Position numbers and translations under genes: made by a program. This document shows positions 51,456-58,312 of a stretch of DNA of 64,000 nucleotides, piece after piece (the stretch's first letter is position 1; every line of letters starts with the position of its first letter). Under the pieces are notes generated by a model, which worked only from the letters and a program-made list of their open reading frames with translations, was not told the origin of the DNA and ran no database searches. Location: positions 1-64,000 of the forward strand of contig RDXE01000054.1 in NCBI GenBank assembly GCA_004292755.1, given 5' to 3'. Origin of the DNA: Alphaproteobacteria bacterium. GTDB lineage: Bacteria; Pseudomonadota; Alphaproteobacteria; Elsterales; Elsteraceae.

Positions 51456-52703
51456 ATGAAGGCCATTACGGAAGTCGGAGATAAGCTTGACTTGGAAGAA
51501 GAGCAGGAAACACTGGATCGAGTTGATGACACTGGTTGGTTTGTGGATGATGCAGATATAGATGAAGATTTTGATGTAAGTTATAAAAATTATGACATTA
51601 CATCGTCGCCGAATGATTTCAACATCAGTACTATCGTAGACTTCATCGAGAAAGGGGTATTTCACATTCCTGGTTTTCAACGAAACTATGTCTGGGATAT
51701 CAAAAGGGCGTCTAAGCTTATTGAGTCAATACTCATCGGACTACCAATACCACAAATTTTTTTATACGAAGAGAAGAGGAATCGTTATGCTGTCGTGGAT
51801 GGACAGCAAAGGCTTATGTCTATCTACTTTTTTAGGAAAATGCGTTTTCCGCGGTCTGCAAAGCGATCTGAGATTCGCCAAAAGATTGCAAGAGAAGGGC
51901 AGCTTTCAGTTGATCTGATAAATGATGATCGGTATTTTGCGCCGTTCAACCTAAAGCTAACTAAAAGAGATGGTTCCTCTAACTCCAAATTCAATAGACT
52001 TAACTACGACACGTTAGGCGAACTTAAAGGAGTGTTCGACCTTAGAACTATCAGGAATGTAATAGTTCGGCAGAATGCGCCGGAGGAAGAGAGCGACTCG
52101 TCTGTATTTGAGATCTTTAGTCGGCTGAACTCTGGAGGGGTCAACCTTCGGCCTCAGGAAATACGCAATAGTCTTCATCACTCGCAATTTATGGAAATGC
52201 TTGCGAAAGTAAATACCAACAAGATCTGGCGTAAATTGCTTGGTAAGCAAGATCTTGATCTTCATGAGAAAGATGTAGAGATACTGTTGAGATGCGTGGG
52301 TCTACTTGTTCATGGTGAGGCATATCGTGAACCCATGAGTCGCTTTTTGAACGATTTCGCGCGAAGGAGCGCAAAACTTGATTCAGCCGACGTCCGCTTT
52401 ATCGAAGACTTGCTGACCAAATTTTTCGATTCTGTGAGTGGTTTGAAGTCAGACTCATTCAAGGTTGGCGGAAAAGCTAGCAGGTTTGGGATTGCAATGT
52501 TTGAGGCGGTCTTCAGAGTAGCTTGTCAAGACGCATATGCCAAAAAAACAGACAAGATTAGAGTCATAACTGACGATAGTCTAGCACTGATCAGAAAACA
52601 CAAGGAGTTCGGGATCGCTACTAGAGCTGGTGCTGGTCATACAAGTAATGTCAATAAGAGATTTGAGATCGTGAGAGATATACTAGATCAAGCAGAGGTA
52701 TGA
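51456..52703 (+). CDS. DUF262 (ParB-like) protein of an AT-rich two-gene island
   Basis: A protein of 415 residues. After an acidic N-terminal stretch (about 1-50) a DUF262 domain shows IPGFQRNYVW (about 71-80), LIESILIGLPIPQIFLYE and VVDGQQRLMSI (about 113-123; DGQQR is the family's ParB-like nucleotide-binding signature). The second half is helical, with a LNSGGVNLRPQEIRNS segment. I see no HNH/DUF1524 nuclease domain, unlike GmrD, GmrSD or SspE. Base composition is AT-rich against a GC-rich genome, and the codon use is unlike all neighbours. Ribosome site AGAGGAAGG. It stands 4 bases from a HEPN gene. Defence role is inferred. Confidence 0.88.
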   Translation: MKAITEVGDKLDLEEEQETLDRVDDTGWFVDDADIDEDFDVSYKNYDITSSPNDFNISTIVDFIEKGVFHIPGFQRNYVWDIKRASKLIESILIGLPIPQIFLYEEKRNRYAVVDGQQRLMSIYFFRKMRFPRSAKRSEIRQKIAREGQLSVDLINDDRYFAPFNLKLTKRDGSSNSKFNRLNYDTLGELKGVFDLRTIRNVIVRQNAPEEESDSSVFEIFSRLNSGGVNLRPQEIRNSLHHSQFMEMLAKVNTNKIWRKLLGKQDLDLHEKDVEILLRCVGLLVHGEAYREPMSRFLNDFARRSAKLDSADVRFIEDLLTKFFDSVSGLKSDSFKVGGKASRFGIAMFEAVFRVACQDAYAKKTDKIRVITDDSLALIRKHKEFGIATRAGAGHTSNVNKRFEIVRDILDQAEV

Positions 52704-52707
52704 TCAC

Positions 52708-53265
52708 ATGGATACTGCATTGATCGCTCGTCTATGCGATGACAACCGCGACTTGGTCAAATTTCTTGTTGATAAAGGCGAAGTGACATTTGCATCGAAT
52801 GTTTCCGATAACTTTAAGCGCACTCTTGTCTTGGCAATTGCGAGCTTTTTCGAGTATGAGATCTCAGAAATTATAATAAAAGCTGCTCAAGCTCATTCAC
52901 AAGATAGCCAGTTCATAGAGTCGCTTATTAGAAATAAGGTTCTTGCTCGGCAGTATCACACATTTTTCGACTGGGACAGGGAGAACGCAAATAAATTTTA
53001 CTCTATGTTTGGTGATGTCATCAAAGATAGAGTTAAAATTATAGCGACTCCAGAGGTTCTAGAAGGAACTAAAAACTTTTTGGATCTCGGTAGAACACGA
53101 AATTCTCTCGTCCACGGTAACTTCGCCAGTTATGAAATAAACAAAACTGTAGAAGATATAATGCTTCAATTCTCCAGTGCATGCAAATTTGTGGAATTTG
53201 CACGTGTAATTCTCACAGAAAAAACTACAACAGCAGAAGTCGTGGCTGAGCCAGTGTGTGACTGA
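52708..53265 (+). CDS. HEPN-domain protein, probable RNase effector
   Basis: A protein of 185 residues, an all-helical HEPN domain of the MAE_28990/RiboL-PSP type. The core motif RNSLVH is R131-x4-H136 (R-x4-6-H, the RNase active site of HEPN enzymes); FFDWDRENANKFYSMFG and the terminal ARVILTE are features of this branch. HEPN proteins are frequent tRNA or mRNA cleaving toxins and defence effectors. It is encoded 4 bases after the DUF262 gene and shares its low GC. A perfect 15-bp palindrome follows its stop by 7 bases. The target is unknown. Confidence 0.86.
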   Translation: MDTALIARLCDDNRDLVKFLVDKGEVTFASNVSDNFKRTLVLAIASFFEYEISEIIIKAAQAHSQDSQFIESLIRNKVLARQYHTFFDWDRENANKFYSMFGDVIKDRVKIIATPEVLEGTKNFLDLGRTRNSLVHGNFASYEINKTVEDIMLQFSSACKFVEFARVILTEKTTTAEVVAEPVCD

Positions 53266-53377: not shown

Positions 53378-53965
53378 TCACACCACCCAGTACGCGTCGC
53401 CGATCACGCCGAGGGGCCAGCGGCCGCCGAGGAACAGGCGGTGGCGGGTGGCGAAGGGGTGGCTGCTGTCGAGGCCTGCGGCCTCAACCAGACCGGCGCG
53501 ATAGCAACTCTCGGTCGCAGCACCGGCTGCGGCACGGCTGAGGCCGGGATCGGCGAGGCCAGTCCGGGCAAGCGCGATAGACGCCGCACCATGGACAGTG
53601 TCCGAGGCGACTTCCGTGATCCGGGTCAGTGCTTCCAGCATCGGGGTGCTGCCGTGGCGCGCCTCGGCCAGTGCGGCCAGACGGCGGCGTTCTGCTTCTT
53701 CACCGTCCCACCACGCGATGCTCCAACTGCTGCCGGTCAGTAGGGATTTGGCCTGAGACCAGCTATCGACGGCCCGGATCGACAGGGGTTGGTGGTGAAA
53801 GCCGTGCAGAACCGACACAGCGTCGGCCTGATCCGCCAGGGTGAGCGGCTCCAGCGTGGCTGCAAACCAGGAGGCATGGGCGATCTCGCCCGTGTGGCGC
53901 TCGGCCAGTCCAGCCAAGCTGGCGCCGATGCCTGCGGACGCAGCCGGGAAGGGCAGCACGCTCAC
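53378..53965 (-). CDS. unknown 195-residue protein of the aromatic operon
   Basis: A protein of 195 residues starting GTG 53965, overlapping the bicupin gene by 4 bases (GTGA), so it is the fifth gene of the operon. It is Ala-rich and mostly helical, without a signal peptide or membrane helix. Segments are LAERHTGEIAHASWFAATL, HQPLSIRAVDSWSQAKS, a middle ASDTVHGAASIALAR helix, and a final FLGGRWPLGVIGDAYWVV, which reads as a conserved C-terminus. I do not recognise the family. Conserved coupling to the dioxygenase suggests an accessory, assembly or substrate-activation role. This is the part of the pathway most in need of identification. Confidence 0.62.
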   Translation of the reverse strand: MSVLPFPAASAGIGASLAGLAERHTGEIAHASWFAATLEPLTLADQADAVSVLHGFHHQPLSIRAVDSWSQAKSLLTGSSWSIAWWDGEEAERRRLAALAEARHGSTPMLEALTRITEVASDTVHGAASIALARTGLADPGLSRAAAGAATESCYRAGLVEAAGLDSSHPFATRHRLFLGGRWPLGVIGDAYWVV

Positions 53966-55008
53966 GCTGCCATCCTTTCCTCCCGCCACAGTCCAAGCAC
54001 CTCCTGCACCGGACGGTCGGAGAAGCTGAACAGCACCGCATCCTTTGTGGTGGCGTGATGGCGGGCAGGGGTCCAGGCCGGGATCACGAAGATGTCGCGC
54101 GGACCCCATTGAAAGTCCTGGTCGCCGATCTGGGAGACACCCTCGCCCTCGATCACCGAGACCACCGTGCCATCGGTGCTGCGATAGGGCAGGGTCTCAT
54201 AACCGGCCGGTAACAGGCTCAACACCGTGCCGATGGTGGGCATGGCCCAGCCGCCAGTCTCAGGATTGACGTAGCGGAGGGCAAGGCCGCGGTGCGGGTC
54301 GATCGGGCCACCGGCGAGTGCCATCAACGCCTCGCGGCTGCGCCGATAGGGGTAATTGAACACGGGCGAGGTGCGCGAGCGCGGCGGATGGTCGAGCGGC
54401 GCCAGACCAGAGCCATAGCGGGCCAGACTGTCGCCGACGGGCCGCGTCACGGGTTGGCGATCCGCGGGGTACATCTCAGCAAAGCTGGCATCCAAGGCCT
54501 GGATCAGCGGGATGTCCAAGCCATCCAGCCAGACCATCGGCTGGTCACTGTCATTGCCATGGTCATGCCAGGTCCAGGACGGGGTGATCACAAAGTCGCC
54601 GGGCTGCATGATTGTGCGTTCGCCATCGACAGCGGTGAACGCGCCCGACCCCTCCACAACAAACCGCAGGGCGGACTGGGTGTGGCGATGCGCTGGCGCA
54701 ACCTCGCCCGGCAGGATCAGTTGCAGGCCCGCATAGAGGGTTCGGGTGATGGAGGATTTGCCTGCAAGGCCTGGATTCTCCAGGATCAACACCCGGCGCT
54801 CCGCCTCCTTGGCGGTGATTAGGTCACCGGCCTCCAGAATGTAGGGGCGGATGTCCTCATACCGCCAAAGGTGCGGGATGGCGGGGCTGGCAGGCTGTGG
54901 GATCACCAGCCCGCGCAGCACTTCCCACAAGGGCGCCATGTCGTGGCGGGCGATGCGCTCATAATAGTCCAGACGCGCGTTCGACCGGGCTGGGGCTGGG
55001 CCTTGCAT
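53962..55008 (-). CDS. gentisate 1,2-dioxygenase-type bicupin
   Basis: A protein of 348 residues with two cupin domains. The N-terminal cupin has VAPAHRHTQSALRFVVEG (His107, His109), then GDFVITPSWTWHDHG (His148 and His150), the Fe(II) ligand set for the gentisate dioxygenase family. The C-terminal cupin (GTVVSVIEGEGVSQIGDQDF) is degraded. The family includes gentisate, salicylate and 1-hydroxy-2-naphthoate ring-cleaving enzymes; gentisate to maleylpyruvate is the most likely activity. A TTG 6 bases upstream may be the true start, overlapping the diiron gene stop. Confidence 0.9.
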   Translation of the reverse strand: MQGPAPARSNARLDYYERIARHDMAPLWEVLRGLVIPQPASPAIPHLWRYEDIRPYILEAGDLITAKEAERRVLILENPGLAGKSSITRTLYAGLQLILPGEVAPAHRHTQSALRFVVEGSGAFTAVDGERTIMQPGDFVITPSWTWHDHGNDSDQPMVWLDGLDIPLIQALDASFAEMYPADRQPVTRPVGDSLARYGSGLAPLDHPPRSRTSPVFNYPYRRSREALMALAGGPIDPHRGLALRYVNPETGGWAMPTIGTVLSLLPAGYETLPYRSTDGTVVSVIEGEGVSQIGDQDFQWGPRDIFVIPAWTPARHHATTKDAVLFSFSDRPVQEVLGLWREERMAA

Positions 55009-55010
55009 GG

Positions 55011-55718
55011 TCAAGCCGCAACAGCAATCGACGGCAGGCTGAGCTTCAAGTGATCCTCCACCAGTGCGCGGGCGCGGCCAAGGTAGTCGGCCAGCATATC
55101 CTCATTGCTGCGCTGTTTGATCCCCCAGCGCCGATAGGCTTCGTTGTTCTTCGACCCAGCCCGGCCAAAGAACGCGGGCAGCAGCGGGAAATACTGGTTG
55201 ATGGCTGCTTGCACGCGGCTGCGCCCCTCTTCGGTCGCGCACAATTCGGTGCAGAAATCCTTGCCGAATTGAGCGTGGAAGCGCTCCTCCGGCATGGTCA
55301 TGCGAGCCAGATTGCGCAAGGGGTGGAAGGTGCAGGTCAACAAGTCTTCGACTTGCAGAATTTCTGCCAGATCAGCCAGCAGCTTGATCACACAGAACTG
55401 CTCCCAGTTTGCCAGGGGAAACTCGAAAATCGACAGAGGGCGTTTCGCGTCGGGCGTCATGCGCTCGGCTGAAATGCCAAGCTGTTCCCCCAACTCCCGA
55501 AAGCGAACATGGTGCCCGTACTCCTCCATCGCCACCCGGCAAGTGAGCCACTTGGCGTAGGGCGTGGGCGCGAAGGCAATCGCAGGCTCGTCAAACACCT
55601 GCGCACCGTAGAGTTCATTGACGGCGTGGCTGATGATGATCTTCTCGATCAGCGTCCGGTACTCTTCCGGCTGCTGAGCCAACTCGTCGATGGTCTTCAC
55701 TTGGATCGCTTGGGTCAT
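55011..55718 (-). CDS. PaaA-like diiron oxygenase
   Basis: A protein of 235 residues with a ferritin-like four-helix bundle of the phenylacetyl-CoA/benzoyl-CoA epoxidase class (PaaA). Carboxylate-His diiron ligands fit Glu35, E66-Y-G-H69 in AMEEYGHHVRF, Glu119 or Glu124 in LAEILQVEDLL, and E145-R-F-H148 in MPEERFHAQFG. It is shorter than PaaA (about 310) and lacks PaaB, C and D neighbours. Between a dedicated ferredoxin reductase and a gentisate-type dioxygenase it probably hydroxylates or epoxidises an aromatic ring that then becomes the dioxygenase substrate. The start has AGGAG upstream. Activity on a CoA ester is open because no CoA ligase is seen. Confidence 0.82.
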   Translation of the reverse strand: MTQAIQVKTIDELAQQPEEYRTLIEKIIISHAVNELYGAQVFDEPAIAFAPTPYAKWLTCRVAMEEYGHHVRFRELGEQLGISAERMTPDAKRPLSIFEFPLANWEQFCVIKLLADLAEILQVEDLLTCTFHPLRNLARMTMPEERFHAQFGKDFCTELCATEEGRSRVQAAINQYFPLLPAFFGRAGSKNNEAYRRWGIKQRSNEDMLADYLGRARALVEDHLKLSLPSIAVAA

Positions 55719-55730
55719 GGCACAGCGCTC

Positions 55731-56651
55731 CTACACAAGGGGGTCGCCTGAGAAGGCGTCCAGGTCGGTTTCAAGGGGAACCAGATGCTCGGTCAGGCCG
55801 CTCAACTGCGGGCCAAGCGGCGTGCCGCGGCGCACCACGGCGCGCGCGATCGGGCGACTTTGCGAGAACAGCATCACCTCACGCCCGCGCACGCCAAAGA
55901 TTTGGCCCGTGATGCCTGCGGCCTCGTCGCGGCACAGCCACTCCACCAGGGTGCCGACATCGCCGGCGGGAACAGACAGCGCGGATGCCTTGTAGGCTTC
56001 CTGTTGGGGTGATTGCGGGCGGATGCTTTCAGTCACGCGGGTGGCGCCGAAGGGTGCGATGGCGTTGGCGGTTGCACCCAGCCGATGCAGGTCCAGGGCT
56101 GCGACGCGGGTCAGCCCCACCAAACCGGCCTTGGCGGCGGCATAGGCGGCCTGACCATAGTTGCCGTACAGACCCGCAGTTGAGATCAGATGCACGATCC
56201 GCGCGCTGGGCCAGCGGCCGTCCGCTGCTTTCGCCTGGGTGCGAAACCGCTCGGCTGCAGCCCGCGACAAGTGGATGCCGCCGCTCAGGCTGGTGCGCAG
56301 CACAGCCTCAACATCGAATGCGTCAGACTTGAACAATAAGCCATCGCGCAGGATGGCGGCGGCGTGGACGAGAATGTCGAACCGCTCACCAACCGCCGCC
56401 ACGGCCGCCGCCGCCCCCTCCGGTGTGGCGATGGAGGTGGTCAGCGCGCGCACGCCCATCTCAGCCGCGGCAGCGTGCACGAAGGCTGGGTCTGGCGTGC
56501 TGCCGTCAATGGCGACGCCGGTATCGGCGATCAGCACGTCCGCTCCGGCAGATGTCAGCGCCTGGGCAATGGCGCGACCCAGTCCGCGCGCGCCACCGGT
56601 GACCAGGGCTGCGCGCCCGACCAGCGGCCCTTGAGTGGTCGCGCCGGTCAC
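55731..56651 (-). CDS. short-chain dehydrogenase of the aromatic operon
   Basis: A protein of 306 residues. The cofactor motif is TGGARGLGRA (about 18-27), then NxxAAI-like HAAAIL, catalytic Ser in ISTAGLYGNYG and Tyr/Lys in YAAAKAG (about 168-174). The C-terminal 70 residues add a tail after the SDR core. The start is GTG 56651, overlapping the reductase stop by 4 bases. It could rearomatise a diol or oxidise an alcohol formed by the diiron oxygenase. NAD versus NADP preference is not clear. Confidence 0.88.
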   Translation of the reverse strand: MTGATTQGPLVGRAALVTGGARGLGRAIAQALTSAGADVLIADTGVAIDGSTPDPAFVHAAAAEMGVRALTTSIATPEGAAAAVAAVGERFDILVHAAAILRDGLLFKSDAFDVEAVLRTSLSGGIHLSRAAAERFRTQAKAADGRWPSARIVHLISTAGLYGNYGQAAYAAAKAGLVGLTRVAALDLHRLGATANAIAPFGATRVTESIRPQSPQQEAYKASALSVPAGDVGTLVEWLCRDEAAGITGQIFGVRGREVMLFSQSRPIARAVVRRGTPLGPQLSGLTEHLVPLETDLDAFSGDPLV

Positions 56652-57652
56652 GACGCCGCCACCGCGGGCCGGTCCGCACTGGTGTAGAACGCATCGGCAT
56701 GGATGTCGGCCTGGGCAAGGCCGAGGCTGTGCAGAACGGCACTCACCGCGTCCACCATCGCAGGTGGCCCAGCGACATAGGCTTTCGCACCGGCGGGCAG
56801 GCCAGCGGCGAAATCAGCAGCGATGCGCTGGTGCAGCATCAAGCCGTCTGCGGCGACTTCCACATGGGTGGTCACATGATCGGAGCGGGTGAGATCGGCC
56901 AGCCAAGCGGAACCATAGGCATCGGCTGGTGTCCGCACGCCGTGATAGAGAAAGACAGCCCGCTGCGGGTCACTGGCCAGCAGGCTGGTGACGATTGACT
57001 GGATCGGGGCCAGACCGGAGCCGCCAGCAATCGCCAGCACGGGTCCAGTATGGTCGCTGCGCAGGTGTGCGGTGCCGAAGGGTCCCTCGACGGTGACCAT
57101 CGTGCCCGGTGTCAGCGCCTGGGTGGCATAGACGCTGACGGCGCCACCCGGTACCCGCCGGATGTGGAAGCGCAAAACGGCCTCATCCGGGGCGTTGGCC
57201 ATCGAATAGTCGCGCGGCGGCAATCCGGGGAAGCTGAGACTGGCGTATTGACCCGCCGTGAAGGTGAACGGGCCGCCCGCGTCGATTGCCAGCGCCACCT
57301 CGACCGTGTCGTGGGTGAGGGGAGTAACCGATTGGACGCGCGTCTCTAACCGGCACAGGCGATGCAGGGCGACGGCATCAGCCTCCAGCCATGCAAGACT
57401 GCAATCCTCCCATGCAAGGGAGCGACAGGCCAACACCAAGCCTGCCTGCCGTTCGGCATCACTCAGCGCATACTCGGACACCGGGGCAAGGTCCACCTCG
57501 CCTGACAGAACACGCGATTTGCACGCACCACAATTGCCCGAGCGGCAGCCGTGGGGAAACGGAACGCCCGCCGCAAGTGCAGCATCCAGAATGGTTTCAC
57601 CTGCTTCGACTGTGATCGGCTGCGGCCAACCCGTCAGTGTGACAATCGCCAT
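56648..57652 (-). CDS. ferredoxin-NAD(P)H oxidoreductase
   Basis: A protein of 334 residues in the PaaE/BenC style. The N-terminal [2Fe-2S] domain has Cys36, Cys41, Cys44 (HGCRSGNCGACKS) and Cys76 (LACRS). The FAD domain has RDYSMANAPDE and GPFGTAHL, and the NAD(P) domain has AIAGGSGLAPIQSIV. It transfers electrons from NAD(P)H to the diiron oxygenase. It is the first gene of the operon; ATG 57652 has GGGGAAG at 6 bases. It is divergent from the MarR gene with 189 bases between. Confidence 0.93.
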   Translation of the reverse strand: MAIVTLTGWPQPITVEAGETILDAALAAGVPFPHGCRSGNCGACKSRVLSGEVDLAPVSEYALSDAERQAGLVLACRSLAWEDCSLAWLEADAVALHRLCRLETRVQSVTPLTHDTVEVALAIDAGGPFTFTAGQYASLSFPGLPPRDYSMANAPDEAVLRFHIRRVPGGAVSVYATQALTPGTMVTVEGPFGTAHLRSDHTGPVLAIAGGSGLAPIQSIVTSLLASDPQRAVFLYHGVRTPADAYGSAWLADLTRSDHVTTHVEVAADGLMLHQRIAADFAAGLPAGAKAYVAGPPAMVDAVSAVLHSLGLAQADIHADAFYTSADRPAVAAS

Positions 57653-57841
57653 GACCGCTTCCCCCTGACCAACCAAATCCTATGGGTAATGTTGGACGCC
57701 CAAACTAATAGTGACAGAGTGTCGCGGCAAAGAGCAAGACACCAGTGACGGCCTGTCGCAGGCAAAGTGCCTTGGCCAGCCTTGCCCGCGACCAAATAGG
57801 CACTATTTCAGTGCGGTCTTTTATGCCCCTGTCCGGTCGCC

Positions 57842-58312
57842 ATGTCAGCCTTTCCTCGCTTCCCCGCTCGCGTTCAACCAGCCTCTCGTGAGGCTTTGTC
57901 TGAAGGGCTTTTGCCCGACCTTTTGGGCTATCGGCTCAGACGGGCGCAGGTTGCTGTGTTCAACGACTTCGTACGCACGATGACGGAGTTGCAGCTGACC
58001 CCCGGCCAATTCGGCACGCTGGTCCTGGTGGACGCCAATCCGGGCCTAAGCCAAACGGCGCTTGGGGGTCTGTTGGGCATCGATCGCTCCACGGTCGTGC
58101 CGCTGATTGACCGGCTGGAGGGGCGCGGCTTGTTGCGGCGGGAGGCGTCGCCTACCGATCGTCGAACACACGCATTGATCCTCACCGATGCCGGGTATAG
58201 TTTGTTAGCCGAAGCAGTGGCTCGGGTTCGTGCTCACGAGAACCGCATTGCCAGCAGCCTGTCCCCCCAGGAGCGGACGCAGCTGATCGAACTGCTGGCG
58301 CAGATCGGGTGA
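57842..58312 (+). CDS. MarR-family regulator
   Basis: A protein of 156 residues with a winged helix-turn-helix: LSQTALGGLLGIDRSTVVPLI (recognition helix) and the wing RREASPTDRRTHALILT, typical of MarR. Divergent transcription from the aromatic operon implies it represses that operon until an aromatic ligand is present. GCACT-ATTTC-AGTGC at 57800-57814 is a short perfect inverted repeat in the shared promoter region and a possible operator. A TTGG-ACGC-CCAA motif also lies nearer the reductase gene. Confidence 0.9.
   Translation: MSAFPRFPARVQPASREALSEGLLPDLLGYRLRRAQVAVFNDFVRTMTELQLTPGQFGTLVLVDANPGLSQTALGGLLGIDRSTVVPLIDRLEGRGLLRREASPTDRRTHALILTDAGYSLLAEAVARVRAHENRIASSLSPQERTQLIELLAQIG

Follow-up and report, generated by a model that had tools for sequence, protein, structure and literature searches.

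The enzymes known to act upstream of gentisate are of flavin and Rieske types, and the salicylyl-CoA 5-hydroxylase of the known CoA route to gentisate is a flavoprotein; such a salicylyl-CoA 5-hydroxylase route is reportedly encoded by the sdg genes of Streptomyces WA46. In Bacillus halodurans a gentisyl-CoA thioesterase cluster has been described, whose thioesterase, like 4HBT, has two Asp residues 15 apart (PMC516016). As for the diiron enzymes acting on CoA esters, the iron ligands of PaaA are E42, E72, H75, D126, E155 and H158, and BoxB acts as a monomer, being a diiron enzyme that epoxidises benzoyl-CoA (PMC4498308).

In the window, i.e. the whole stretch of 64,000 nucleotides analysed here, a diiron protein related to PaaA is encoded together with a gentisate 1,2-dioxygenase (GDO). 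The five-gene coupled operon and the divergent MarR gene of the original prediction were all found in place, and the kinds assigned to the reductase, the SDR, the diiron protein and the bicupin were confirmed with Pfam and NCBIfam. The minus strand carries, in order of reading, a [2Fe-2S]/FAD/NAD(P)H reductase that is a BenC/PaaE-type class IA electron-transfer component (about 56648..57655), an SDR dehydrogenase whose closest type is (3R)-hydroxyacyl-CoA dehydrogenase / MFE-2 (55731..56651), a putative PF05138 diiron oxygenase that belongs to a clade of its own (55011..55718), the bicupin GDO (53962..55014, starting at TTG 55014 or ATG 55008) and a conserved all-alpha protein of 195 aa that matched no Pfam or NCBIfam family (53378..53965). 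Three of the junctions are 4-bp overlaps, and the gap between the SDR and diiron genes is 12 bp. Right beside the 3' end of the operon lies an AT-rich insert (51456-53265, plus strand; 42-44% GC versus 60-70% GC in the surroundings), which encodes a candidate defence pair, formed by a GmrSD_N (DUF262) protein with NsnA as its best PADLOC match plus a RiboL-PSP-HEPN protein.

The reductase bears the Pfam domains Fer2, FAD_binding_6 and NAD_binding_1, its best NCBIfam match is BenC (180 bits, under the cut-off of that family), its PDB matches are 5ogx, 7c3a and 1krh, and the C-x4-C-x2-C motif is kept in 70 of 71 relatives. For the SDR, the best PDB match is 2et6, a (3R)-hydroxyacyl-CoA dehydrogenase, and S-x12-Y-x3-K is kept in all relatives (71/71). 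The divergent regulator (57842..58312, plus strand) belongs to Pfam MarR and is best matched in NCBIfam by the Saro_0803 family (120 bits, under its cut-off); it is probably the repressor of the operon, and a search of 16 intergenic regions found no common MarR operator dyad. A reductase homologue, 47% to the operon type, was also seen in one of the genomes that lack the diiron clade (L143 4638-5666), where it sits between lolA and a pair formed by the gene of the 195-residue protein and xth.

Among 84,980 species genomes scanned, at least 218 stretches encode relatives of the diiron protein, mostly in Alphaproteobacteria, with Iodidimonas muriae and Reyranella massiliensis as examples of cultured carriers; the best 80 of the 218 were kept, which are 66-80% identical to the protein of the window, and 87 loci were compared with the window included. 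Of these 87, 71 have a recognisable reductase, 70 the SDR, 49 the GDO and 75 the 195-residue protein, and several of the absences are explained by the end of a contig or by decay of the copy. The core of the operon consists of the reductase, the SDR, the diiron protein and the 195-residue protein, and in most loci the SDR gene stands between those of the reductase and the diiron protein. The survey of gene order proposed with the original prediction bore it out, since the order is kept in dozens of independent loci and the operon is thereby far beyond chance. Most loci come from metagenome-assembled genomes (MAGs) and carry the organism labels of those MAGs, the gene calls are mechanical, contig ends restrict how many linked genes could be counted, and genomes that are related do not represent independent samples. 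No phage or viral copies were found.

The diiron protein scores 84 bits against PF05138, the PaaA/PaaC superfamily, above the gathering score of 28.5, while against TIGR02156 (PaaA) it reaches 78.5 bits with a cut-off of 280, and against TIGR03225 (BoxB) 15.6 bits with a cut-off of 499. The six PaaA ligands align to E35, E66, H69, D116, E145 and H148, among which are the two predicted ExxH motifs, E66-x2-H69 and E145-x2-H148; all six are invariant in 53 relatives, so that a loss of the ligands in homologues, which would have spoken against a diiron enzyme, is not seen. In contrast, the lysine bridge of PaaA is not kept, as K68 aligns to V62. An AF2 model (pLDDT 95.7) has the PaaA fold with a TMq of 0.87 and matches SSO1313 and BoxB as well, i.e. 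the fold of the PaaA/BoxB aroyl-CoA epoxidases. In the tree a supported branch (97/96) separates the family from PaaA, PaaC and the other PF05138 rows, with several outgroup rows on long branches. From the ligands, the model fold and the change of K68 to V62, we infer that the protein is built like an oxygen-activating member of the PaaA/BoxB group, yet is not PaaA. Plain PaaA membership was rejected both on the score and on the missing partners: PaaB is absent from 15 of the 17 operon genomes, and in the two that have it, canonical paaA and paaC adjoin it; in the genome of the window itself no second PF05138 protein (PaaC) was found besides the single one of the operon. The predicted absence of PaaB and PaaC from this PaaA-like operon is supported to this extent, whereas the view that a single-subunit diiron enzyme is unusual is weakened by the monomeric BoxB.

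The tie between this operon and gentisate cleavage is supported by several lines. The bicupin scores 541.6 bits against TIGR02272, over the curated cut-off of 442.1, and matches PDB 2d40 with an E value of 2e-125, which upholds the gentisate type first read from its sequence and makes gentisate 1,2-dioxygenase its predicted activity. Of 18 operon genomes checked, 17 have a GDO orthologue, whether inside the operon or at another place, the exception being a genome that is 75% complete; in Reyranella-type genomes, for example, the GDO is present and unlinked to the operon. Among 96 genomes of the class, GDO occurs in 7 of 8 with the diiron gene versus 8 of 88 without it (p = 4e-6, with no phylogenetic correction). 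Moreover, in four loci (L072, L060, L099 and L102) the genes for GDO, fumarylpyruvate hydrolase and a maleylpyruvate-isomerase-type protein stand in one run. In the genome of the window, a maleylpyruvate-isomerase-type gene lies on contig C67, and the end of contig C38 carries a fumarylpyruvate hydrolase fragment, xth and an ADP-forming-ligase-like gene, a trio also found 3' of the operon in L018, L024 and L037. The placement of xth, the 195-residue protein and even GDO beside lolA/ftsK is seen also in genomes without the diiron gene, and therefore a part of the operon linkage may be neighbourhood inertia. In addition, a Peptidase_C26 (gamma-glutamyl hydrolase-like) gene repeatedly adjoins GDO or the operon (L018 4085-4873, L117, L120, L123, L132), from which it might be that gamma-glutamylated aromatic substrates are involved.

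In relatives, the operon is linked to genes for CoA esters. Within about 10 kb, such a gene is found in 70 of the 87 loci, of ligase type in 57 and a thioesterase in 43; these are benzoate-type or ADP-forming CoA ligases and hotdog thioesterases. An ADP-forming CoA-ligase alpha-like gene is linked in 46 of the 87, and its family keeps the HTG histidine in 43 of 43 clustered members, while no ATP-grasp partner was noticed in the neighbourhoods seen; L116 8321-9757 encodes one such acyl-CoA synthetase (NDP-forming) alpha-like protein. Genes like benzoate/3-hydroxybenzoate-CoA ligases are linked in L062, L063, L065 and L072, with those of L062 and L072 in the benzoate/anthranilate/3-hydroxybenzoate-CoA family, and a further acyl-CoA ligase stands divergently beside marR in L021, L022 and L058; the linked ligases vary between lineages. 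The thioesterase of the type found in L091 matches 4-hydroxybenzoyl-CoA thioesterases and, like 4HBT and the gentisyl-CoA thioesterase, has two catalytic Asp at a distance of 15 residues. Near the locus of the window itself there is no CoA gene, and the ADP-forming-ligase-like gene is on another contig. The original prediction had seen no CoA ligase and took a linked one in relatives as a refutation; because CoA ligases are indeed linked there, the CoA-free reading fails in relatives. A benzoate-CoA-ligase-like gene on contig C26 of the same genome was considered and not assigned to the pathway, as beta-oxidation-type genes surround it; the cluster in question (L115 4602-10206), with genes for MarR, an enoyl-CoA hydratase, an acyl-CoA dehydrogenase, an old-yellow-enzyme-like protein and the ligase-like protein, appears by its gene content to be another aroyl-CoA pathway.

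Taken with the evidence of relatives, the operon most likely acts on a CoA-activated aromatic acid, and we hold it to be somewhat more probable than not that it serves to turn an aromatic acid into gentisate through CoA esters and by way of the diiron enzyme. In such a route, the starting acid (most probably benzoate or one of the monohydroxybenzoates, for instance 3-hydroxybenzoate or salicylate) would be converted into its CoA ester by a ligase whose gene lies elsewhere; the reductase would pass electrons from NAD(P)H to the diiron protein, which would insert one oxygen into the aroyl-CoA ring to give gentisyl-CoA; gentisate would then be released by a hotdog thioesterase or through conversion by the ADP-forming-ligase-like protein; and GDO would open its ring, after which maleylpyruvate isomerase and fumarylpyruvate hydrolase would complete the pathway. 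One oxygen would have to be added if the substrate is 3-hydroxybenzoyl-, salicyloyl- or 4-hydroxybenzoyl-CoA, and two if it is benzoyl-CoA. The route is favoured by the GDO score, the ligands and modelled fold, the co-occurrence, the linked CoA enzymes and the hydroxyacyl-CoA-type SDR; against it count the own locus without a CoA gene, the varying ligases, neighbourhood inertia and the lost lysine. Its weakest point is the step of the SDR, perhaps the oxidation of a beta-hydroxyacyl-CoA-like ring intermediate: a single hydroxylation needs no SDR, so that an upstream or ring-dearomatised intermediate is possible.

Another reading, though unlikely, is that the diiron enzyme takes an earlier step on some other CoA ester, at a side chain or on an alicyclic or amino-aromatic ring, followed by the SDR, with GDO co-regulated and several steps away. 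The position of the gene for the SDR, whose part in a one-step hydroxylation is not evident, and the use of beta-hydroxyacyl-CoA by the relatives of this SDR both fit such a step, as do the Reyranella-type loci, which have GDO elsewhere and in which an alpha/beta hydrolase and an M81-type protein follow; however, the operons of L060, L072 and L099 consist of the module, the gentisate-pathway genes and CoA enzymes, and nothing else. Quite improbable in our estimate is that the diiron protein makes gentisate by hydroxylation of free salicylate, 3-hydroxybenzoate or benzoate, with no CoA ester at all, as the copy in the window, lacking a ligase or thioesterase nearby, the free gentisate required by GDO and the absence of the lysine bridge would allow, but which is opposed by the CoA-ligase, ADP-forming-ligase or thioesterase genes of so many related loci, by the CoA esters used by the nearest solved fold relatives, PaaA and BoxB, and by the hydroxyacyl-CoA type of the SDR. 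Finally, the reading of the enzyme as an epoxidase of the BoxB or PaaABCE kind, with a ring opened non-oxygenolytically and the gentisate genes as mere neighbours, has the fold and ligands of epoxidases and the partly common neighbourhood of diiron-free genomes on its side, yet is very improbable, since BoxC/BoxD- or PaaG/PaaZ-like genes are not seen among the recurrent neighbours and the gentisate genes both recur nearby and co-occur genome-wide.

Besides the enzymes of this favoured CoA route, the 195-residue protein merits attention. It is present as predicted; rather than an orphan, however, it represents a conserved family, with its gene 3' of the diiron gene in most loci, including those of Betaproteobacteria and Polyangiaceae MAGs. 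It occurs in 16 of 18 operon genomes, in that of L060 away from the operon. Its AF2 model is all-alpha with a pLDDT of 94.2, and a fold search against the PDB gave nothing significant, the best being 8cm0, an Rhs immunity protein (E 0.11). The idea of a dedicated, obligate oxygenase subunit was downgraded because 13 genomes of the class carry the protein without the diiron gene, several of them between lolA and xth and two beside GDO. In Alphaproteobacteria without the diiron operon (L136, L137, L139, L141, L142, L143, L144), the protein is single-copy and its gene adjoins xth, often with lolA and ftsK, and therefore a more general role may be considered.

If the proposed CoA route is true, a way of degrading aromatic acids that is currently annotated merely as 'phenylacetic acid catabolic protein' operates in hundreds of Alphaproteobacteria, most of which are uncultured and many marine. 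It would also make a diiron oxygenase of CoA esters a supplier of gentisate, joining the CoA-epoxidase family to oxygenolytic aromatic catabolism, and would mean that a PaaA-type enzyme functions without PaaB and PaaC; this reading of the operon yields a clear and testable set of substrates. We put forward more tentatively, and with somewhat more doubt than belief, that these proteins are an undescribed and widespread class of compact diiron aroyl-CoA hydroxylases, which make gentisyl-CoA for a ring-cleaving dioxygenase and in which the helical accessory protein replaces PaaB, PaaC and PaaD.

With the CoA route to gentisate and the single-subunit diiron aroyl-CoA oxygenase each already known separately, what appears new is their combination, together with a PF05138 clade and an accessory protein that are both new; the open-access literature searched, with subscription papers outside the search, held no report of a diiron enzyme linked to gentisate or of this combination. 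The unusual element would be a diiron enzyme, not a flavin or Rieske enzyme, supplying the gentisate pathway. Compared with the PaaABCE phenylacetyl-CoA epoxidase, the operon has the PaaA fold, six identical iron ligands and a PaaE-like class IA reductase alongside, whereas its diiron protein is some 60-75 residues shorter than PaaA chains, its coupling is to gentisate genes instead of paaG/Z, PaaB is missing from 15 of 17 genomes and PaaC from the genome of the window, and the lysine bridge is lost. With BoxB, a diiron aroyl-CoA oxygenase that needs no structural subunit, it has the fold in common, but its diiron protein is half the BoxB length, its reductase is BenC-like instead of BoxA, and BoxC/BoxD are not seen. 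SSO1313 of Sulfolobus (PDB 4mud) is a similarly compact and stand-alone PaaA-like diiron fold (TM 0.83/0.88), at 23% identity. The sdg and B. halodurans routes resemble the one proposed here in leading from an aromatic acid through aroyl-CoA and gentisyl-CoA to gentisate with a thioesterase and GDO, while the candidate hydroxylase of the operon, unlike that of the sdg route, would be a diiron protein, accompanied by a distinct reductase and by an SDR.
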